From positions 372,001-436,000 of the forward strand of contig NZ_FNRQ01000006.1 of the NCBI RefSeq assembly GCF_900107685.1: 64,000 nt of DNA. The letters run 5' to 3'. Both the position numbers and the translations under genes were made by a program. Shown piece after piece: positions 8,323 through 17,559 of this stretch. The first letter of the stretch is position 1; every line of letters begins with the position of its first letter. The DNA is from Paraburkholderia sartisoli. Its GTDB lineage: Bacteria; Pseudomonadota; Gammaproteobacteria; Burkholderiales; Burkholderiaceae. The notes beneath the pieces were generated by a model that saw only the letters and a list, made by a program, of their open reading frames with translations, was not told the DNA's origin and did no database searches.

Positions 8323-9192
8323 GTGTCCGCTCCGAACCTGATTCCCCATATCCGCAACGCGCTTGCATCGCTGCGGCCGGCCGAACGCAAGGTCGCCGAC
8401 ATGGTGCTGGGCGACGTCGATTTCGCGATGCGCGCGAGCATCACCGAACTCGCGCAGCGTGCCGACGTCTCGGAGCCTTCGGTGACGCGCTTCTGTCGCG
8501 CGATCGGCGCACATGGGCTGCGCGACTTCAAGATGCTGCTCGCGCAGAGCGTCGCGGGTGGGTTGCCGTATGCGTCGACGGCCGTCGCGCGCGACGACGA
8601 CCTGCAGACGCTCTTCGACAAGGTTAGCGAAGCCGCGGTCCAAGGCATCACGCACGCGCGCGGCGCACTGGAACCCTCGGCGGTCGAAGCGGCGATTTCG
8701 GCGATTGCCACGGCGCGGCGCGTGTATTTCTTTGGCGTCGGTTCGGGCTCGGGGCTCGCGGTGCAGGACGCGGCGCTGCGGTTTCTGCGGCTCGACATCG
8801 CGGCGAGCGCTTTCACCGACGGTCATCTGCAACGGCTTTACGCGGGCCTGATGGAACCCGGCGACGTCGCGTTCGCGATCTCGCATTCTGGACGCAGCGT
8901 CGAAGTCAACGAAAGCATCCAGATCGCGAAGGAGCGTGGCGCGACAACCATCGGCCTGACGAACGTCGGCTCGCGTCTCGCGTGGCTCGTGGACATTCCC
9001 TTGCTCCTGCGCGTGCCGAACGCGATCGATCCCAATACGCCGGGCGTGTCGCGCATCGTGCATCTGTGCATCATGGATGCGCTCGCCATCGGCGTTGCGC
9101 TCAGGCTGGAGCCGAAGACGCTCGAGAAGATGCGGCATGCCAAAGCAAGGCTGTCGCAGGAAGCCGGGCCTCCTTCCACGGATACGCCTTGA
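8323..9192 (+). CDS. RpiR-family transcriptional regulator
   Basis: A 289-residue protein with the two domains of this family: an N-terminal helix-turn-helix (about residues 1-77, including RADVSEPSVTRFCRAIG) and a C-terminal SIS sugar-phosphate-binding domain (about 120-260), with RVYFFGVGSGSG and SHSGRSVEVNESI. The start is GTG at 8323 with AGGAA at 8311-8315. Proteins of this kind sense phosphorylated sugars and usually control their own catabolic locus, so this one probably controls the two divergent operons through the sites at 5967 and 6132. Confidence 0.9.
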   Translation: MSAPNLIPHIRNALASLRPAERKVADMVLGDVDFAMRASITELAQRADVSEPSVTRFCRAIGAHGLRDFKMLLAQSVAGGLPYASTAVARDDDLQTLFDKVSEAAVQGITHARGALEPSAVEAAISAIATARRVYFFGVGSGSGLAVQDAALRFLRLDIAASAFTDGHLQRLYAGLMEPGDVAFAISHSGRSVEVNESIQIAKERGATTIGLTNVGSRLAWLVDIPLLLRVPNAIDPNTPGVSRIVHLCIMDALAIGVALRLEPKTLEKMRHAKARLSQEAGPPSTDTP

Positions 9193-9234
9193 AGCATCGT
9201 TCGGTTGTGGCCAGAAAGCGCGCTTTCCTGCGCC

Positions 9235-9254
9235 GGCGCGCAATCATGCGCGCC
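9235..9254. terminator. hairpin between convergent RpiR and methyltransferase genes
   Basis: GGCGCGC and GCGCGCC form a perfect 7-bp stem around a 6-base loop; a second perfect palindrome (GAAAGCGCGCTTTC, 9214-9227) lies just before. No T-run follows. The position between two convergent stops suggests termination. Confidence 0.35.
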
Positions 9255-9316
9255 ACGAGCCCATGTGGTTGCATGGCGCGCCAGTACGGCGCGGTTCGGG
9301 CTTTGACGAACGGCTT

Positions 9317-9877
9317 TCAGTAGATCCAGGGAATCAGCCGGCGCGAATGTCGCCGGTACTCTGCATAGACTTCACCAAATTCGCTGGCGAGCGCGGCTTC
9401 TTCGATCTTGATGCGCCTGATCATCACGCAGAAGACCGGCAGGAACGCGACGGCCAGGCTGATCCAGTTATTGAGCGCGAGACCATAGCCGAAAAAGCTG
9501 ACGAGCAGTCCGGTATAGGCCGGATGGCGCACCCACCGGTAAATGCCGCTGGTGATGAGCGCGTGTCCTTCGCGAATCGCGACGTTGTAGGTGAAGAAGC
9601 GGCCGAGCGTCACGATCGAGACGATCCGCAGCAGCATGCCGGTCAGGATCACGACGATGCCGACGTAGCGGAATTCCGGCGCGCGGACGATGGGGAAATC
9701 CGTGAAGTACGCGATGAGCGCGGCCACCCCGATCGACGACACGGTGGTGAACCAGATGACGACAAGCGTGCGCCGGTCACGGTTGCCGGCTTCCTTGCGG
9801 GACGCTCGCAGTTTCGACGACAGGACCATCTCGGTGCCGACCCACGCGAAAAACACAACGGCGAAAATGTAGTTCAT
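9317..9877 (-). CDS. ICMT/PEMT-family membrane methyltransferase
   Basis: A 186-residue integral membrane protein with about five helices. The C-terminal half has the signature of isoprenylcysteine carboxyl methyltransferase-like enzymes: SGIYRWVRHPAYTG, then a glutamate-rich stretch (RIKIEEAALASEFGEVYAEY) ending in RLIPWIY. These enzymes use S-adenosylmethionine to methylate lipid-linked or small hydrophobic acceptors. I took the ATG at 9877, where the first helix begins; a TTG at 9946 is an alternative. Last gene of the nine-gene operon. O-methylation of a pathway product is possible but unproven. Confidence 0.8.
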   Translation of the reverse strand: MNYIFAVVFFAWVGTEMVLSSKLRASRKEAGNRDRRTLVVIWFTTVSSIGVAALIAYFTDFPIVRAPEFRYVGIVVILTGMLLRIVSIVTLGRFFTYNVAIREGHALITSGIYRWVRHPAYTGLLVSFFGYGLALNNWISLAVAFLPVFCVMIRRIKIEEAALASEFGEVYAEYRRHSRRLIPWIY

Positions 9878-9947
9878 AAGCGGATGACGGGTGAATCTGG
9901 CGTCGGCCAGACTGAGGGTTGACGGGTTAAGGATCGCGACACGCAAC

Positions 9948-10412
9948 TTAGATGACGAGCGCCATCAGGACAATGAGCGAGCCGGCCACGAGGCTGAACG
10001 GGGTGTAGATAAGGCGGTCCATTCGCCGGAATGGGCCGTCGCCCCTCTTCCGGAAAAAGCCGAAGTGGCGAAAATCACCGACGGCACGCACGAGCAACGT
10101 CGCGCCGAGCAGGATCACGGCCACCTGAAGAACCGGGCGAAGCGCCGCGCGCGGGAACGGCGTGCAGATGACGTCGAGCCACAGAAGCAGCAGCGCCGAA
10201 CACGCGGCCGAGCCGGCCGCGACCAGCAGGATCGCGCCACGGCGAGGCTGAAAGACCGGCCGCGCGCCCTCATGCGGAAGGGCGAGCTGCAGGCCGCGCC
10301 GGCCGTTCATCGCCCAGTACAGATGGACGAGCGCAAACAGAAAGAACGCAAACGCGAGTGCAAGACCCGCGCAGCGCAGGCCGGCGACGTACCAGGTGTG
10401 CATGTCAGCCAT
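9948..10412 (-). CDS. DUF3995 family membrane protein
   Basis: A 154-residue protein with four hydrophobic segments. The N-terminal helix ending in LVHLYWAMNGRRG and the C-terminal VGDFRHFGFFRK, then MDRLIYTPFSL, are the hallmarks of DUF3995, whose function is unknown. It overlaps the upstream ferredoxin gene by 8 bases. Membership in the operon suggests a membrane anchoring, transport or self-protection role, which is inference only. Confidence 0.8.
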   Translation of the reverse strand: MADMHTWYVAGLRCAGLALAFAFFLFALVHLYWAMNGRRGLQLALPHEGARPVFQPRRGAILLVAAGSAACSALLLLWLDVICTPFPRAALRPVLQVAVILLGATLLVRAVGDFRHFGFFRKRGDGPFRRMDRLIYTPFSLVAGSLIVLMALVI

Positions 10413-10728
10413 CGGTTCTTGAAGCGTCGCGCGGCACCACGCGTGATGCGGGATCGGCCAGCGGCGCTTTCTTCCGTGTGATCAGCGGCCATATCCGCGA
10501 CTGCGCGTGATTGAACGCGACGGCAGCTTCACGCTCCACCGGGGGAAGATCGTCCGCTTCCAGGATGGCGTCGACTGGACACTCGATGATGCAGACGCCG
10601 CAATCGATGCAGTCATCCGGATTGATAACGAGCATCTCCGGTCCTTCGTGAAAGCTGTCCGTCGGGCAAACCTCGACGCAGTCCGTATATTTGCAGCGCT
10701 CGCACGCCTGTGTGACGACATGTGTCAT
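10405..10728 (-). CDS. ferredoxin, two iron-sulfur clusters (7Fe/FdxA-like)
   Basis: A 107-residue protein. CERCKYTDCVEVCP near the N-terminus and CIDCGVCIIECP near residue 40 supply the ligands for two clusters, arranged as in Azotobacter ferredoxin I. The free cysteine found in the CPVDCF segment of that family is Ser here (CPTDSF). The tail of about 50 residues is longer than in 8Fe ferredoxins. The start is ATG 10728 with AGGAA 7 bases away. Being in the operon, it is the obvious electron donor for the di-iron oxygenase or the FAD enzyme. Confidence 0.9.
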   Translation of the reverse strand: MTHVVTQACERCKYTDCVEVCPTDSFHEGPEMLVINPDDCIDCGVCIIECPVDAILEADDLPPVEREAAVAFNHAQSRIWPLITRKKAPLADPASRVVPRDASRTDG

Positions 10729-10739
10729 GAGTTTTCCTG

Positions 10740-11483
10740 TCAGGCTGTCATGCCGCCGTCGATCACAAAGCACTGTCCGGTGACATAGTGGCTTTGATCG
10801 CCGACGAGGTATTCGACCATGGAGCTGACGTCGCTCACATCGCCGGCCTTACGCATGGGGATCGAGCGGCAGAGGGCCACGCGCGCTTTTTCCGGCATCT
10901 CGCGCATCATGTCCGTATCGATGATGCCGGGCGCGATGGCGTTGACGCGCACCCCGAAGCGCGCGACTTCGAGCGCCAGCGAGCGCGTGAAGCTGATCAG
11001 TGCCGCCTTGGTCGCGCTATAGCTGGTTTGCCCGGCGTTGCCCTTCAGCCCCGACACGGACGACATCATGACGACCGAGCCGCTGCCGGCTTCAACCATC
11101 GAGGGGAGCAGCGCGCGCGTCCAGTGAAACGCCGCGTTCAGGTTGTTGTCGACGACCGCGAACCAGGCTTCGGCGTCCATGCCGAGGAAGGCGCCATCGC
11201 GCGTGATGCCGGCGTTGTTGATGAGCGCATGCGGCGCGCCGTACCGGGCAACCCACGCCTGCGCCAGCGCCGCGACCGCCACGCGGTCCGTGCCGTCGCA
11301 TTGCACCGCGTCGACATGGCGGCCTTGCTGCTGGCAATCGTTCGCGAGACGGTGCGCCGCGTCACTGGAATGAACGTACGTGAAGACGACGTGATAATGC
11401 CGCGACAGTTCGCGTACGAGCGCCTCGCCGATACCGCGGGCGCCGCCGGTTACCAGTAACCACGGCCGTTTCTGTTGAGTCAT
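10740..11483 (-). CDS. 3-oxoacyl-ACP reductase-like SDR (FabG type)
   Basis: A 247-residue short-chain dehydrogenase with TGGARGIGE at residues 12-20, NNAG at 89-92, and catalytic S142, Y155 and K159 (YSATK). NAIAPGIIDTDM and the C-terminal YVTGQCFVIDGGM are typical of FabG. The gene overlaps the upstream FAD-enzyme gene by 4 bases. In a cluster with a ketosynthase and an acyl carrier protein it most likely reduces the 3-oxoacyl-ACP intermediate. Confidence 0.88.
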   Translation of the reverse strand: MTQQKRPWLLVTGGARGIGEALVRELSRHYHVVFTYVHSSDAAHRLANDCQQQGRHVDAVQCDGTDRVAVAALAQAWVARYGAPHALINNAGITRDGAFLGMDAEAWFAVVDNNLNAAFHWTRALLPSMVEAGSGSVVMMSSVSGLKGNAGQTSYSATKAALISFTRSLALEVARFGVRVNAIAPGIIDTDMMREMPEKARVALCRSIPMRKAGDVSDVSSMVEYLVGDQSHYVTGQCFVIDGGMTA

Positions 11484-13012
11484 GTGAAATCCTTTGCTTT
11501 CTGGAACCCGAGCATCGCGCCGTAGCCGACCGTCGCTTCGTATCCGCTGCCCGACACCCAGTGGCTGACAAAGCGCAGGTTGTCGACCGGAAGCCTTCGT
11601 GAGGGCGCGTGTTTCGTCGACGATGGTTCGACCAGTGCGCCATAGCCCGACCCATGGGTGTTGTTCGTGTAGCGCAGACAGGTGCGCGGCGTTGACAGTT
11701 CGACGTAGCGAACGTGTCCTTGCATGTCGGCGAAGTGTTCGAGCAGGCGGCCGAGCAGCGCATCCCGCGCGCGCGCTTTTTTGCCGCGATAGGCGTCGGT
11801 CTTGCGTTCCGGCCAGTGATGGATCGTGTCGAGTGCATTGACGACGATGACGTGGCCGGCTGTCGGGTCAAGCGCGTGATAGTTCGTCACCTCGACCGAC
11901 GAGTCGTGCCAGTACGCCTGTTCGCTCAACGCGGCCTCAGACGGCGCGCGGCGCGCACAGGCCCGGGCCTCGCATGCCGTTTCGGGATCGCGCGCGAGCA
12001 GCATGGTTTCGGCGTCGACCAGACCGTAGCGGGCTGGCGGCGCGTCGAGCACGACGTAAAGCGTCGTGGTTGAACTGGCTGCGTGCGTCGCGGTGTGTGC
12101 CGCGACGGGCGTGTCGAACCCAGGCAGCGTCCGATCGACGAGATGCTCCAGCGCGTAAAGCGGCGACGTGTTGACGATCACTTCGTCAGCATGGAAATGA
12201 CCGATCTCCGTGACGACGCCCGTCGCGCGCATCGACGTGCGGTCGATCGTGATCTGCTGGACTTCGGCGCGGGTGACGACACGCCCGCCGCCACGTTCGA
12301 TGCGGCGAACCAGCGCGGCGGTGAGCGCGCTCGAACCGCCTCGCAGATACGCCGAGCCGCCGAACAGCACCGCATACCAGACATGCAGAAAGTACAGATA
12401 GCTCGTCTGTTCCGGGAACGCGCCGACGTAAATGCACGGCAGCGCAAGTATTTCGCGCAGCGTCGGCACCGGGATGCGCTCGCGGATCGCATCGCGCGTC
12501 GAGCGTGTTTTCAGCACGGTATGTGCATATCGCAGACGTTTGAGGTCAGGTTCGTATTCGCCGGACAGCGTGCGAAACTGCATGTACCCATCGTATCCGT
12601 ACGTGCTGATTTCGTCGAAGATGGTTTGCAGCCCCGCTGCACAGTCGGGGAAGCGTTGTTGCAGCGCTTCAAGAACGGCGTGCGGATCTTTGGTCAGCGT
12701 GATGCGTGTGTCGCCGGTGCATGCCCTGAAGAGCGTGTCCGGAAAGACGGGCTCAAGTTCGTCGAACACGCCGAGGCGCTTCAGCGCCTCCCGCAGGTTG
12801 CCGTCCGGCCCCATGCCGCTCAGCTTGTGCAGGCTGACGTCGAAGCGCGCGTGGTGCTTCGGGCGGGCGAACTGCGTTGCGTATCCACCCGGAATCCGGT
12901 GCTTCTCGAGCACCACGATGCGTGTGCCGCGACGCGTTTCGAGCAGGCTCGCCGCATACGCCAGCGCCGTGATGCCGGAGCCGACGCATACGACGTCGAA
13001 TGACTCGCTCAT
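11480..13012 (-). CDS. FAD-dependent oxidoreductase, phytoene desaturase/RetSat-like
   Basis: A 510-residue protein. The N-terminal dinucleotide fold VVCVGSGITALAYAASL is followed by VVLEKHRIPGGYATQF and FDVSLHKLSGMG, matching the carotenoid isomerase / retinol saturase branch of amine-oxidase-like flavoproteins. A C-terminal FAD-contact segment is seen near VSGSGYEATVGYGAMLG. No carotenoid genes are nearby. In this operon it could desaturate, saturate or isomerise an acyl-ACP chain. It overlaps both neighbouring genes by 4 bases, so it is translationally coupled. Confidence 0.82.
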   Translation of the reverse strand: MSESFDVVCVGSGITALAYAASLLETRRGTRIVVLEKHRIPGGYATQFARPKHHARFDVSLHKLSGMGPDGNLREALKRLGVFDELEPVFPDTLFRACTGDTRITLTKDPHAVLEALQQRFPDCAAGLQTIFDEISTYGYDGYMQFRTLSGEYEPDLKRLRYAHTVLKTRSTRDAIRERIPVPTLREILALPCIYVGAFPEQTSYLYFLHVWYAVLFGGSAYLRGGSSALTAALVRRIERGGGRVVTRAEVQQITIDRTSMRATGVVTEIGHFHADEVIVNTSPLYALEHLVDRTLPGFDTPVAAHTATHAASSTTTLYVVLDAPPARYGLVDAETMLLARDPETACEARACARRAPSEAALSEQAYWHDSSVEVTNYHALDPTAGHVIVVNALDTIHHWPERKTDAYRGKKARARDALLGRLLEHFADMQGHVRYVELSTPRTCLRYTNNTHGSGYGALVEPSSTKHAPSRRLPVDNLRFVSHWVSGSGYEATVGYGAMLGFQKAKDFT

Positions 13013-13941
13013 TGCGAAAGACCGAGTTCGACGAACCAGTCGCGCTGCTCCTTGAACCGTCGGGCGTTGAGCATCGCATTGTTCGGCGACGTGCGGATCG
13101 AGCGGACCACGTCCGGATTGTTGACGTCGGCGGGAAACGGAAAGCTCAGATGCGCGGCGATCTCCGGATTGAACGTCAGCAGATTAATGAAGTTGTTCAG
13201 CACGGGCCGGAACTGCTCGCGCACGATCGCCTGATCTTCGTGTGAAGCGCTATTGAAAAAGCCTTCGACGATGCGCCGGCCGAACGTGATGTGACGGATT
13301 TCCTCGACGTGATGCGCATGAAACATCTTGCGCGTGAGCGGCTCGATACCCTCGTCTTGCGTGCTGGACATGGCGACCAGTTCGGCGGCCCACTCTATCG
13401 TCAACGTCCACAGAATGCCGATGGCCGGATGAAGCGTGGGGAGCTTTGCCAGCAGCGCCGCGTAAGGACCCGACGGCGGTGCGAACAGGTTGAGACCGGC
13501 GAGTTTCATGTATCGCCGGAACATCAGCGTATGGATGATCTCCTCTTTCGGGAAGATCATCAGGTACTCGTAGATTTCCGGACTGAGCCGTTCATGATAC
13601 GTGTTGACGTAGCCGACGTAGAGCGGCGGCAGCGTCTGCTCCAGCCAGATGAACATCGATACGTCGCGCGCTGTTTCCTTCCACAGCAACTCGCGACGTT
13701 CGGACTCGCCAAGCGCGTCCCAGTACGGCGTGCCGTAGATCCACGAGGTGTTGTCCGCCTTGGGCGGCAGCGAGAGATCGATTCCGTCCTGCCACGGCAG
13801 AACACCATCGACGTCCATGAACGACCGATGTGACGCCTGCACGAGCTTTCTGATGTTCTCGTGCTTCTGTTCGGACAGGCAGAACGGGTCCCCTGCGTTG
13901 ATGGCGACTGCTTCAAGCGGATTACGAGTAGCGGTGTTCAT
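13009..13941 (-). CDS. AurF-family di-iron oxygenase (possible N-oxygenase)
   Basis: A 310-residue protein of the p-aminobenzoate N-oxygenase (AurF) type. The expected iron ligands are all present and spaced as in AurF: E101, E134-x2-H137 (PKEEIIHTLMF), a mid-chain Glu (E183 or E187), and H210-x3-E214-x2-H217 (HAHHVEEIRH). AurF and CmlI turn aryl amines into nitro groups; other members hydroxylate carbon. The start is ATG 13941, with AGGAGG 8 bases before and the ACP stop only 2 bases upstream. The first 60 residues show no other domain. The substrate is unknown, probably carried by the ACP. Confidence 0.85.
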   Translation of the reverse strand: MNTATRNPLEAVAINAGDPFCLSEQKHENIRKLVQASHRSFMDVDGVLPWQDGIDLSLPPKADNTSWIYGTPYWDALGESERRELLWKETARDVSMFIWLEQTLPPLYVGYVNTYHERLSPEIYEYLMIFPKEEIIHTLMFRRYMKLAGLNLFAPPSGPYAALLAKLPTLHPAIGILWTLTIEWAAELVAMSSTQDEGIEPLTRKMFHAHHVEEIRHITFGRRIVEGFFNSASHEDQAIVREQFRPVLNNFINLLTFNPEIAAHLSFPFPADVNNPDVVRSIRTSPNNAMLNARRFKEQRDWFVELGLSQ

Positions 13942-13943
13942 CG

Positions 13944-14201
13944 TCAGGCCTCCTGGGTTGCGGCTGCCGTGCCGATATACGTGCATAGCTGTCCGAGTGT
14001 GCGGATCTGCTTTTCGAAGAGCGCGGGCGACAGCGCCACGCCAAATTCGCGCTTCACGCCGACCTGGATTTCGACGTAGTCGAGACTGTCGAGACCCAGT
14101 TCATCGATGCTGGTTTCCTGCTGGATCTCGCTGGGCTCAAGGTCCTTGATCTCGACGATCATGTTCTGGATAAACTCAAACACAGTGCTGGCATCAGCCA
14201 T
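13944..14201 (-). CDS. acyl carrier protein
   Basis: An 85-residue acidic carrier protein. The phosphopantetheine site is the Ser in LGLDSLDYVEI (S39), in the usual helix-2 position. The size fits a free-standing type II carrier. It overlaps the dehydratase gene by 8 bases and is followed after 2 bases by the oxygenase gene, which suggests that intermediates stay bound to this ACP. Confidence 0.92.
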   Translation of the reverse strand: MADASTVFEFIQNMIVEIKDLEPSEIQQETSIDELGLDSLDYVEIQVGVKREFGVALSPALFEKQIRTLGQLCTYIGTAAATQEA

Positions 14202-15075
14202 TTTCTTGTTGCTCCAGTTGCTTCGCTGATGAACTCAGCGGGGAAATCATGAGAGCCACCGTGGTTCTCAACAGAAACTGCGTATCGGCATACGCGCTCA
14301 AGGTCGCCTGAATGACGCAACCCTCCTGCCCGCTGCCGGTAATGACAGGGGTATCGATGTCGCAGCGGATTGCATCGGCTTCGCCGTGTGCACCGGTCGA
14401 ATCGATGTCCATGCGCTGGATTTCGGCGGAAATCACCGTCGAGTGGTGTGTCTGCAGGACGGTCGCGTGTTGCATGAGGTCGTCAACGGAACGGGCGGGC
14501 GCGAAGCCGGCAAAGTCGCTAACTTGCGCGAAGAGGCCAGGCTGGCGGAGCAGCGCGCTAAAGAGCAATGCGTCGAGCAGCAGCCATGCGCCGGCCTGGC
14601 CGTGAGAGGTGGCCGGCCATAGCGCGATTGCGGCGGCGCGTTCCGCTTTTGAAATCGAAAACGAATGCCACGCGGGCCCGCTGCCGCACGCTCCAGCAGG
14701 ATCGCATTTCGACTCAACGCTGACTGACAGCGGACGCAGATGACCCGTCATGCAAGGTGTGTTGCGTTCTTCGTCTGCTACCGCGAAATTGAGGCCGTTG
14801 CCGCGCGATTCGATGGCGAAGCGATAACCGGCGTTCTTGAGAACCGGTGCGCGCAACACGGCCTTGAACACGAGCGCGCCTTCCGGCCATTCACGGCGCC
14901 CCGCTTCCTGAAACAGTGCTGCCTTTACGTCGAGCATCACGCGCATGCCGTGAACGGGCACAGCGCCCAGATTCAGCCGCGCGGCGCGCGCGAGGTCGAA
15001 ATGGACCGGATTGAAATCGCCCGAGAATTCGGCCCACGCCTGCAGGTCGGCTGTGTTGTAACGGAGTGCGGTCAT
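14194..15075 (-). CDS. MaoC-like hot-dog dehydratase
   Basis: A 293-residue protein. The N-terminal half carries the R-specific hydratase signature FSGDFNPVHFDLARA (about residues 18-32) with the catalytic Asp and His, followed by VHGM. The second half (about 135-293) has no catalytic motif and may be a degenerate second hot-dog fold, giving a double hot-dog as in some 3-hydroxyacyl-ACP dehydratases. It overlaps the ketosynthase gene by 4 bases. Expected reaction: removal of water from 3-hydroxyacyl-ACP to give a 2-enoyl chain. Confidence 0.78.
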   Translation of the reverse strand: MTALRYNTADLQAWAEFSGDFNPVHFDLARAARLNLGAVPVHGMRVMLDVKAALFQEAGRREWPEGALVFKAVLRAPVLKNAGYRFAIESRGNGLNFAVADEERNTPCMTGHLRPLSVSVESKCDPAGACGSGPAWHSFSISKAERAAAIALWPATSHGQAGAWLLLDALLFSALLRQPGLFAQVSDFAGFAPARSVDDLMQHATVLQTHHSTVISAEIQRMDIDSTGAHGEADAIRCDIDTPVITGSGQEGCVIQATLSAYADTQFLLRTTVALMISPLSSSAKQLEQQENG

Positions 15076-16349
15076 GGCACGAACCGTTCGATGACAAGCG
15101 CCGCGTTGGCGCCGCCGAAGCCGAACGAGAGGTTCATCGTCGTGTCGACCTGCGCCTCACGGTGCGTGTTTGGAACGTAGTCGAGATCGCATTGCGGATC
15201 GGGATCGGCCAGATGGATTGTCGCCGGGACAATGCCGGATTCGATCGTTTTCAGGCAGACGATGGTTTCGAAACTGCCAGCCGCCGCGATCAGGTGGCCC
15301 GAGTACGACTTCGTGCTCGACACCGGAATGCGGTACGCGTGCTCGCCAAGCGCTGCCTTGATCGAAGCCGTTTCGTTGACGTCGTTGAGCGGTGTCGACG
15401 TGCCGTGTGCGTTGATGTAATCGATCTGGTCAGCGGACTTTCCCGCGTCGGCCAGTGCCGCCCGGATCGATTCGACGCGCGCGATCATGTCTTCTGCCGG
15501 CGCCGTGAAATCGCGCGCGTCGGAGTAGCTGCCGTAGCCGGTGATTTCTCCAAGAATGCGGGCGCCGCGATGCAGGGCGGATTCCATCTCCTCGAGGCAC
15601 ACTACGGCTGCACCTTCGGACAGGACGAAGCCGCTGCGCGCCTGGCTGAACGGACAGCAGGCTTTCGACACGTCAGCCTGTTCCTTGGTGAGTGCCTGCA
15701 GGATATCGATGTTCCAGACGTTGGTGCGCGCGTTGAGCGCCTCGGCGCCGCCCGCGAGCATCATTCTCGCGCGGCCCTGGCGGATCACCTCGACGGCGTC
15801 GCCGATTGCGATCGTGCCCGTTGCGCAGGCGGCGACCGGCGTGTTCTGATAGCCACGCAGATTCCACATCAGGCTGCACGCAGCCGTTGCCACGTTCGGC
15901 ATGGTCAGCAGGCTACCGAGCGGACTGCCGAAGCCCGTCGCGAGATAGCGGTCGTGGCATTGGTAGGCCTCGTCGAGGCCGCCCCATCCCGTACCAACGA
16001 TCACGCCGCAATCGAGCGGCGAGTAGACATCGCCCGGTGCCTGCTGTCTGAACGCCATGCCAATGGCTTCCTGCGCGGCGAGCGCCGCGTGGCGTGCGAA
16101 ACGCGGAAGCGCGCGCCTGACCGCCGCTGGAATGGCGCGGAACTGTTTTTCGTCAATGTCGACCTTGCCGAAGAAGCGGGCTTTGATCGACGCGTCCCCC
16201 GTGTCGTGAAGACGATAGCCACATGCGTAATTCATGATGCTTTCCCAGCACGCGTCGACGCGGTTGCCAAGAGGCGTCACGCTGCCGTAGCCAGTGACCA
16301 CGACTCGACGGGCAGGGTGGTTCGAGTTGCCACGGAGAGAGTTGTTCAT
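15072..16349 (-). CDS. beta-ketoacyl-ACP synthase (FabF/KAS II type)
   Basis: A 425-residue ketosynthase. The catalytic triad is intact: C175 in AACATGT, H315 in INAHGTSTPLND and H352 in KSYSGHLIAAAG, with K347 before it. The C-terminal FGFGGANAALVIE is close to the usual FGFGGTNA. There is no fused acyltransferase and no chain-length-factor partner. It is the first gene of the nine-gene operon, and its sequence is distant enough from housekeeping FabF (no fabH/D/G context) to suggest a specialised pathway. It should condense an acyl primer with malonyl-ACP. Confidence 0.9.
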   Translation of the reverse strand: MNNSLRGNSNHPARRVVVTGYGSVTPLGNRVDACWESIMNYACGYRLHDTGDASIKARFFGKVDIDEKQFRAIPAAVRRALPRFARHAALAAQEAIGMAFRQQAPGDVYSPLDCGVIVGTGWGGLDEAYQCHDRYLATGFGSPLGSLLTMPNVATAACSLMWNLRGYQNTPVAACATGTIAIGDAVEVIRQGRARMMLAGGAEALNARTNVWNIDILQALTKEQADVSKACCPFSQARSGFVLSEGAAVVCLEEMESALHRGARILGEITGYGSYSDARDFTAPAEDMIARVESIRAALADAGKSADQIDYINAHGTSTPLNDVNETASIKAALGEHAYRIPVSSTKSYSGHLIAAAGSFETIVCLKTIESGIVPATIHLADPDPQCDLDYVPNTHREAQVDTTMNLSFGFGGANAALVIERFVP

Positions 16350-16755
16350 GCGGAAAAGGAGTCCGTTCGATACGCGGAAGAATCGGTGGGTCGCAGTGCT
16401 GCCTGTTATTGCGATCCGTAAATCGATGCTTCTTTGACTGTGTAGGAATCCGTAGTGTATGAACTGAACATTAGCCCAGTATTGACAGGAATCAGAAATG
16501 ATTCGGAGAACTGTTATCCAGAATTTGCGCTAAAAGGACGCGTGTTTTTGGGAGCGTGCGAACGCTTAATGCGTAATGAATATGCGCGACGTGAAGGCCA
16601 TCTCGTCGGAAGCCGGATCGAAGCAGGTGTGGAGTGCGAGGCGGGGCGAGCCAGCCGCGAATAAGCGGGACGCCGTGAACGTCCCGTTCAGCGCGATCCA
16701 TGCAGCATGAAAACGTTGCCGTCATACGGAGAGCAACGCATGCTAACGCGGGGTC
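16350..16755. promoter_or_regulatory. promoter region of the nine-gene operon, with small palindrome
   Basis: About 400 bases without a credible gene and richer in A+T than the flanks. A perfect inverted repeat GAATCA-GAAA-TGATTC is at 16489-16504, roughly 140 bases before the ketosynthase start on the minus strand. No clear lux box or sigma-54 site was found. The terminator of the adjacent lrp-like gene should also lie here. Confidence 0.4.
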
Positions 16756-17232
16756 TCATGCGATCTGCACCGAAGGCACGCTCTTCATGCAGCGCAGCGC
16801 GAACATCGAGCGGCTGTGGCGAATGCCGGCGATCCGGTAGAGCTTCTCGCGCAGGAAGCGCTCGTATCCCGCCGTGCCGTCGACGGCGACTTTCACCAGG
16901 TAGTCGTATTCGCCCGAGACCAGATACGCCTCCAGCACCTCCGGCAGTGTTGCCAGTTCGGCGCCGAAGCGGGCGAGGGCGTCATCGTCGTGACGGTCCA
17001 GCGTGACTTCGAGCAGCACGACATCGGCGAATCCGAGCTTCGCGCTATCCAGCAGCGCCACGTAGCCGCGAATGTAGCCGTCGGCCTCCAGTTGCCGCGT
17101 GCGGTTCCAGCAGGCGGTCGTGGACATGCCGGCCAGCTCCGCCAGTTCCGCGTTCGAGAGCCGGGCGTTTCTTTGCAGTTCGCGCAGGATCTTGCGGTCC
17201 TGGCTGTCCAGTGGACGGTTTCGCGTGCTCAT
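16756..17232 (-). CDS. Lrp/AsnC-family transcriptional regulator
   Basis: A 158-residue regulator with an N-terminal winged helix-turn-helix (LDSQDRKILRELQ, ELAGMSTTACWNRTRQLEADG) and a C-terminal RAM ligand-binding domain with the conserved GEYDYLVKVAVD segment. Length and layout are standard. Members form octamers and respond to amino acids. It lies upstream of and co-oriented with the biosynthetic operon, but 406 bases apart, so control of that operon is possible but unproven. Confidence 0.92.
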   Translation of the reverse strand: MSTRNRPLDSQDRKILRELQRNARLSNAELAELAGMSTTACWNRTRQLEADGYIRGYVALLDSAKLGFADVVLLEVTLDRHDDDALARFGAELATLPEVLEAYLVSGEYDYLVKVAVDGTAGYERFLREKLYRIAGIRHSRSMFALRCMKSVPSVQIA

Positions 17233-17559
17233 GATGGATCGCCGGAAGATTATTCAGATATCGATCATTCTAACGGAAGAACGTTTCGGCTTGACAGCAA
17301 AACACATGGCAATCAGGAAGCCTTTACAGGGGCGCGCCGGGTATATTTTCTACATTGCTTTCAAGCCCGGACAGCCGCGCGGGCCAGCACACCCGCGCCG
17401 GCCGCCCGCCGTAGCCACACGCTACGGATCGGATGTCGTGTCGCCTTACCGTTGGCGACGCAGGAGCGCGCTTCGACGTTACCGCGTCGGACGTGGCGCC
17501 CAGCGGGTACGAAGGCATGTTCTGTTTTTCCTCTGCCGTTTCCTTCCCTTCTGATGTTT
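17233..17559. other. intergenic region with hairpin
   Basis: No gene is seen. A perfect stem CCGTAGC / GCTACGG (17409-17427) around CACAC could end transcription of the phosphatase-like gene upstream on the minus strand. The A+T-rich part nearest the Lrp start (17240-17275) probably holds its promoter. Confidence 0.4.

Follow-up and report, generated by a model that had tools for sequence, protein, structure and literature searches.

What does an AurF-type diiron enzyme do inside an operon that otherwise resembles a small fatty-acid pathway? The question is raised by a gene of Paraburkholderia sartisoli at positions 13009-13941, on the minus strand, of the window, i.e. the whole 64,000-nucleotide stretch analysed here (contig NZ_FNRQ01000006.1, positions 372,001 to 436,000). 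Its 310-residue product was recognized as an AurF-like, probably diiron enzyme by the Pfam family PF11583 and by the ligand columns of its alignments. Rather than calling it an arylamine N-oxygenase, we assign it to an uncharacterised, conserved subfamily within the AurF-type ferritin-like diiron enzymes, and we consider the case evenly balanced that it is a ferredoxin-driven oxidizer of carbon on an acyl chain bound to acyl carrier protein (ACP) or coenzyme A (CoA).

Predicted iron ligands and fold of the AurF-like protein

The initial annotation had delimited the gene correctly as a complete open reading frame (ORF) but overlooked its strand: the start ATG lies at 13941, the stop ends at 13009, and the plus-strand frame across this interval is interrupted by stops. 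The product matches the Pfam AurF family far beyond chance (72.6 bits against a gathering cut-off of 29.6, E = 4e-20), and NCBIfam contributed no model at E 0.01 or better. The ligands named beforehand (E101, E134, H137, H210, E214 and H217) are exact, and the mid-chain Glu that had been left without a number is E183. In a 36-row alignment, which includes AurF, CmlI, a VlmB homologue and two R2lox chains (7qbk, 7qbp) from the PDB, all seven residues of this three-His, four-carboxylate set align with the corresponding positions of AurF and CmlI, so that the proposed full AurF-type ligand set is borne out. Loss of ligands in orthologues, which had been put forward as grounds for abandoning the assignment, was not seen: the seven are identical in all five rows of alignment A2 (the window protein and four orthologues, 47-57% identity) and also in the orthologue at locus L058. 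In the 30-row alignment A3, E134, H137, E183, E214 and H217 are present in 30/30 rows, E101 in 27 and H210 in 23. Compared with the nearest Paraburkholderia relative (L003), the gene has 26 differences in 930 bases, and the nonsynonymous rate (dN 0.0099) against the synonymous one (dS 0.093) points to purifying selection. Judged by its sequence, the protein probably binds two irons through the three-His, four-carboxylate set.

The AlphaFold2 model, built from five sequences, is moderately confident (mean predicted local distance difference test score 64.3, predicted template modelling score 0.62). Foldseek placed AurF first at E 0.021, with no match at or below 0.001. VIA-align superimposed the model on AurF (3chu) over 262 residues with Z 16.5 and a root-mean-square deviation of 3.8, and rows of ribonucleotide reductase R2 tied at 16.4. 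Since AurF and R2 score alike in VIA-align, the fold gives no choice between the two, and the predicted model supports a ferritin-like bundle only. Searches of the PDB depended on the depth of the query: the single sequence produced nothing better than chance (best E 0.33), the five-row orthologue profile matched R2lox best (7qbp, E 1.7e-4) and missed AurF chains even at E 10, and AurF (3chh, E 1.2e-11) and CmlI came up only with the 30-row profile. Identity to AurF and CmlI in the structural alignments is 12-17%.

Two other AurF-like proteins, one encoded on an Agrobacterium vitis plasmid (L021:7956-9748) next to a nitronate monooxygenase gene and the other at L009, have Ile at the first Glu ligand. 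The P. sartisoli genome itself encodes a second ferritin-like protein (G000:C12:140221-140673; L065:8773-9654), which matches Pfam FA_desaturase_2 (E 4.5e-8), falls below the cut-off of the AurF model (22.8 bits) and misses the third His; it was left out of the tree described below.

A clade marked by two second-shell glutamates

In the tree of the 36-row alignment, the window protein belongs to a supported group (96/95) together with the proteins of L004, L005, L006, L007, L058, L020, L081 and L052. Exactly these 9 of the 36 rows carry Glu at both second-shell positions (E133 and E213 of the window protein, in the motifs EExxH and HxxEExxH), a signature that the initial annotation had missed. 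The second-shell columns were included when the tree was built, so the Glu/Glu pair characterizes the group but does not count as separate evidence for it. Elsewhere the pair is Asp/Asp (AurF and CmlI), Glu/Asp (R2lox) or Asp/Glu (actinobacterial relatives linked to DUF4873). Thus, where the AurF/CmlI N-oxygenases have their second-shell Asp pair (D135 and D226 in AurF, the roles of which are described in PMC12101540), the window protein has E133/E213. AurF and CmlI are placed in the tree with low support (39/35 at the base). L052 shares the Glu/Glu pair but sits on a very long branch (3.41), and its four scanned neighbours, encoding OsmC, a Na/H exchanger, an alpha/beta hydrolase and OmpA, are unrelated.

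The nine-gene operon

The AurF-like gene is the fourth of nine minus-strand genes that overlap or lie at most 11 bases apart, in the order ketosynthase, MaoC-type dehydratase, ACP, AurF-like protein, CrtI-like flavoprotein, FabG-type reductase, FdxA ferredoxin, DUF3995 protein and ICMT-family protein. The earlier description of a fatty-acid-type operon was accurate: the families and motifs of a ketosynthase, a dehydratase, a short-chain dehydrogenase/reductase (SDR) and an ACP were all found, and active-site motifs are present in the ketosynthase, ketoreductase, dehydratase and ACP of this cassette resembling a type II fatty-acid synthase (FASII) or polyketide synthase. Most NCBIfam matches were below their cut-offs, and the names therefore denote families rather than exact functions.

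The FabF-type ketosynthase (425 residues, 15072-16349, minus; PF00109/PF02801, NCBIfam fabF below cut-off) carries the Cys-His-His set (ACATG 174, NAHGT 313, SGHL 350). It is followed by the 293-residue MaoC-type dehydratase (14194-15075, minus; PF01575, E 5.9e-7, motif SGDFNPVHFD) and by the 85-residue ACP (13944-14201, minus; PF00550, E 1.4e-12, attachment motif DSLD), whose gene ends two bases before the start of the AurF-like gene. Downstream of the latter lie a CrtI/carotenoid-isomerase-like flavin adenine dinucleotide (FAD) oxidoreductase (510 residues, 11480-13012, minus; Pfam NAD_binding_8 and DAO, NCBIfam carot_isom and crtI_fam below cut-offs, conserved in alignment A4) and a FabG-type SDR ketoreductase (247 residues, 10740-11483, minus; Pfam adh_short, motif YSATK, with the 3-oxoacyl-ACP reductase model TIGR01830 below cut-off). 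The ferredoxin previously noticed at 10405 is real and of the FdxA type (107 residues with eight Cys, 10405-10728, minus; Pfam Fer4 families, NCBIfam FdxA at 121.8 bits against a cut-off of 135); it is the probable electron donor of the AurF-like enzyme. The operon closes with a DUF3995 protein, probably a membrane protein (154 residues, 9948-10412, minus; PF13160, E 1.1e-22, relatives in L004 and L081), and a 209-residue membrane protein resembling ICMT-family methyltransferases (9317-9946, minus; PF04140, E 6.3e-20; PDB 4a2n, E 7.4e-17). Neither an enoyl reductase nor an acyltransferase is among the nine genes. As the initial annotation had stated, no amine source was seen, either among the nine operon genes or among the nine flanking window proteins that were scanned, which are transport, regulatory or otherwise unrelated proteins.

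Upstream, an Lrp/AsnC-type regulator (16756-17232, minus; Pfam AsnC_trans_reg) stays beside the operon in L003 and, from its position, possibly regulates it. The gene beyond the downstream end (8323-9192) encodes an RpiR-type regulator and runs convergent to the operon. A scan of 9100-17400 with promoter and terminator consensus patterns returned nothing above chance. Literature searches, whose coverage included no bioRxiv preprints and only a minority of subscription journals, found no publication on this operon and, within the same limits, nothing on DUF3995. An aerocyanidin-like isonitrile lipid, considered as the product because of a link to Chromobacterium, was dropped, since nothing ties that name to these genes. 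Elsewhere in the genome (G000:C12:697860-702577, L086) three ketosynthase-like genes stand in a row, with 30-37% identity to the operon ketosynthase; we take them to be, perhaps, part of an aryl-polyene-type cluster.

Gene neighbourhoods and distribution of the relatives

A scan of genome contigs yielded five loci. The entire nine-gene operon is found in a Paraburkholderia metagenome-assembled genome (L003), with 90-98% protein identity, and its first eight genes occur in the same order in Chromobacterium piscinae (L004; ketosynthase 67%, AurF-like protein 57%, flavoprotein 51%, SDR 50%, ferredoxin 57%), where the ICMT-family protein has no match. Orthologues in Oxalobacteraceae (L005, L006, L007) and in genome G410 (L058) have other neighbours. 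At all four loci an AMP-ligase ORF comes before the AurF-like gene, and a crotonase follows it in three of the four by Pfam, L007 having been read by eye; a 4HBT thioesterase is present at L005 and L006 and an amine-oxidase-type flavoprotein at L006 (Pfam). The Oxalobacteraceae ligase that was tested, at L006, is of the long-chain-fatty-acid type.

A search of plasmid proteins revealed a larger type II cluster in Photobacterium (L020:2189-16559), with a CrtI-like flavoprotein (33% identity), an AurF-like protein (24%) and an SDR (45%). It encodes a flavodoxin, an AMP ligase, two KSIII-type proteins, an ACP, the CrtI-like and AurF-like proteins, an SCP2 protein and a metallo-beta-lactamase-fold protein, and further the SDR, a ketosynthase, a truncated ketosynthase-like protein and a FabA-like dehydratase. 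Genome G1240 has a similar cluster (L081:2293-16835, with one KSIII-type ORF called) plus a DUF3995 gene (38%). In L020 and L081, the pair of AurF-like and CrtI-like genes thus again neighbours genes for ACP, ketosynthase and SDR, and both the flavoprotein and DUF3995 can be aligned along their length from cluster to cluster; this recurring partnership of the AurF-like protein with a CrtI-like flavoprotein had gone unremarked in the initial annotation. A Streptomyces relative (L068) is also adjoined by a flavoprotein gene, one containing Fer4.

The acyl cassette occurs without the two oxidizing genes as well. On plasmids of Serratia marcescens (pE41, L071) and Chimaeribacter arupi (L072), ketosynthase, MaoC-like, ACP and SDR genes follow the same order as in the operon and adjoin genes for a MacB-type exporter and an outer-membrane efflux protein; no AurF-like gene is among the annotated genes of that stretch. 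Twelve matches to the operon dehydratase were listed from Serratia proteamaculans plasmids.

Close orthologues were found in 2 of 144 genomes of the genus (the second, G1222, is probably the same as L003), in 1 of 398 genomes in the family search (12 with any match), in 2 of 399 in the order search (40 with any match) and in 2 of 398 in the phylum search (the same two as for the order; nine with any match). Searches around other centres gave 1/5 genomes for the family of G1240 (its own protein as query), 1/3 for the family of G410 and 0/299 for that of G445. The operon flavoprotein was matched in 8 of 303 genomes; besides its own, the neighbourhoods L081-L085 were opened, and one of these five (L081) contains an AurF-like gene. 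The neighbourhoods L059, L062, L063, L064, L066 and L067 were compared with window proteins only. Ten genomes of genus g58 (family f34; L060, L063 and relatives) encode an AurF-like protein with 25-29% identity to the window protein; at L060 its gene adjoins NAD synthase and CoA-ligase genes.

Comparison with characterized AurF relatives

The initial annotation had confined AurF relatives to large arylamine polyketide or peptide clusters, which was overstated. CylC and NocO halogenate C-H positions of ACP-bound fatty acyl chains (PMC12101540, PMC8406957), LitN hydroxylates an amide nitrogen on hexadecanedioyl-threonine (PMC10616846), MatA/ActI are fatty-acid-linked and thought to oxidize nitrogen (PMC5719088), and Dob3 and DnfA have been connected with a hydrazone (PMC13061610) and a hydroxylamine (PMC9478400), respectively. 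With AurF and CmlI the window protein shares the above-cut-off PF11583 match and the seven ligand positions, and they are among its top structural matches; it differs in its low identity, in the Glu pair instead of an Asp pair, and in an acyl-ACP operon in which no aryl-amine supply was seen. Like CylC/NocO it is an AurF-like diiron enzyme encoded beside an ACP, and these enzymes provide a precedent for C-H chemistry on acyl-ACP, but it lacks QExxH, its operon has no fatty acyl-AMP ligase, and it is proteobacterial, not cyanobacterial. LitN is likewise an AurF-like enzyme of a lipid-linked pathway; enzymes of its type, linked to DUF4873, are represented here by L022 and L069. The DUF4873 partner, annotated beside L022 and L069, is however absent from the nine operon genes, and these two proteins have an Asp/Glu second shell, against Glu/Glu here, and a separate place in the tree. 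Finally, FabF, ACP, FabG and phytoene-desaturase-like (CrtI-like) proteins also come together in the FASII clusters described for Kuenenia (ladderanes) and Desulfotalea (polyunsaturated hydrocarbons) (PMC2649909), but radical S-adenosylmethionine enzymes are found there, whereas an O2-dependent diiron enzyme is expected here.

Proposed carbon oxidation on an acyl chain and its alternatives

Of the two substrates offered by the initial annotation, carbon on an acyl-ACP is favoured by the gene context of the relatives, and an amine made elsewhere becomes the rival. We infer carbon oxidation because close relatives have acyl-ACP or acyl-CoA genes as partners and because precedents exist: CylC/NocO, the phytoene-desaturase-like proteins of FASII clusters and the Geobacillus R2lox GkR2loxI, a reported alkane hydroxylase whose cluster includes a long-chain acyl-CoA ligase and an enoyl-CoA hydratase (PMC10867098). 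The operon would then be a small type II fatty-acid- or polyketide-like pathway in which, as their families suggest, an unsaturated acyl chain tethered to the operon's own ACP is assembled by the ketosynthase, the reductase and the dehydratase; as the operon has no acyltransferase, the housekeeping enzyme is assumed to load malonyl. The AurF-like protein would hold two irons in the ligand set read from its sequence; the site would be reduced by the FdxA ferredoxin, and O2 would yield a peroxo or higher-valent species that oxidizes a carbon of the ACP-bound chain by hydroxylation, epoxidation or desaturation. This unsaturated chain may next be acted on by the CrtI-like flavoprotein and then finished at the membrane by DUF3995 and the ICMT-family protein, a step that in Paraburkholderia might be a carboxyl methylation. 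The Oxalobacteraceae branch might carry out the same chemistry on long-chain acyl-CoA. The wider proposal, which we advance tentatively and hold somewhat short of an even chance, is that a separate E133/E213 branch of the AurF type uses the ligand set of N-oxygenases to oxidize carbon in acyl chains carried by ACP or CoA, working with a CrtI-like flavoprotein in undescribed small type II acyl pathways that are sporadic in Paraburkholderia, Chromobacterium, Photobacterium and relatives.

Several observations weigh against carbon oxidation, and most of them speak for the main rival, an N-oxygenase that acts on an amine, amide or hydrazone from outside the operon, e.g. an amino-acyl or amide chain. 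The three-His, four-carboxylate set has been called largely unique to N-oxygenases (PMC12101540), and the characterized proteins that have it in common (AurF, CmlI, Dob3 and DnfA) oxidize nitrogen; N-oxidizing relatives linked to fatty acids exist in LitN and MatA/ActI. A grouping of eight clade members (all but L052) with AurF/CmlI was not rejected (p-AU 0.077). In the Photobacterium cluster the AMP ligase most resembles benzoate-CoA ligases, and the starter there could be aryl, possibly even aminoaryl. Beside the AurF-like gene of G410, and convergent with it, lie kynureninase and tryptophan dioxygenase genes (L058:5310-7452), a possible source of an aryl amine. In addition, the L006 flavoprotein has no significant BLASTP similarity to the operon CrtI-like flavoprotein. 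On the other side, the nine-gene operon lacks genes for pyridoxal-phosphate (PLP) enzymes, aminotransferases, amide synthetases and adenylating enzymes. Neither PLP enzymes nor amide synthetases are among the family-scanned genes around L005, L006, L020 and L081 (some neighbours were outside the scan), and the Glu/Glu second shell departs from both Asp/Asp of AurF and CmlI and Asp/Glu of the DUF4873-linked relatives. We regard N-oxidation as rather unlikely, but as the strongest of the alternatives.

An R2lox-like two-electron oxidase, with a manganese/iron or diiron site, acting on a hydrocarbon or fatty acid without an ACP, appears improbable. Of the PDB sequences, those of R2lox come closest to the orthologue profile of five rows, the fold is shared, R2lox proteins bind fatty acids, and one of them is the reported alkane hydroxylase mentioned above. 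The window protein nevertheless has His at position 210, where the R2lox rows, with six ligands, lack the third His and have Ile; their second shell is Glu/Asp, the two R2lox rows group in the tree with the VlmB homologue, outside the nine-row clade, and the ACP gene directly abuts the AurF-like one. A halogenase of the CylC/NocO kind, chlorinating an ACP-bound chain, is very improbable despite the third His, the adjacent ACP, the ferredoxin and the acyl-ACP substrates of these AurF-like enzymes, since the motifs given for halogenases in the NocO paper (QExxH and HxxDExxH; PMC12101540) read EExxH and HxxEExxH here.

Implications

For AurF relatives, occurrence in a fatty-acid setting has precedents in CylC, NocO and LitN. 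The Glu/Glu clade keeps the ligands of the N-oxygenases, changes both second-shell acids and is tied to acyl genes in several neighbourhoods, and its activity would help to show which features of an AurF-type diiron site, its ligands or its second shell and pocket, decide between oxidizing nitrogen, hydroxylating carbon and halogenating carbon. The operon family is amenable to knockout in bacteria that can be cultured, Chromobacterium piscinae among them.

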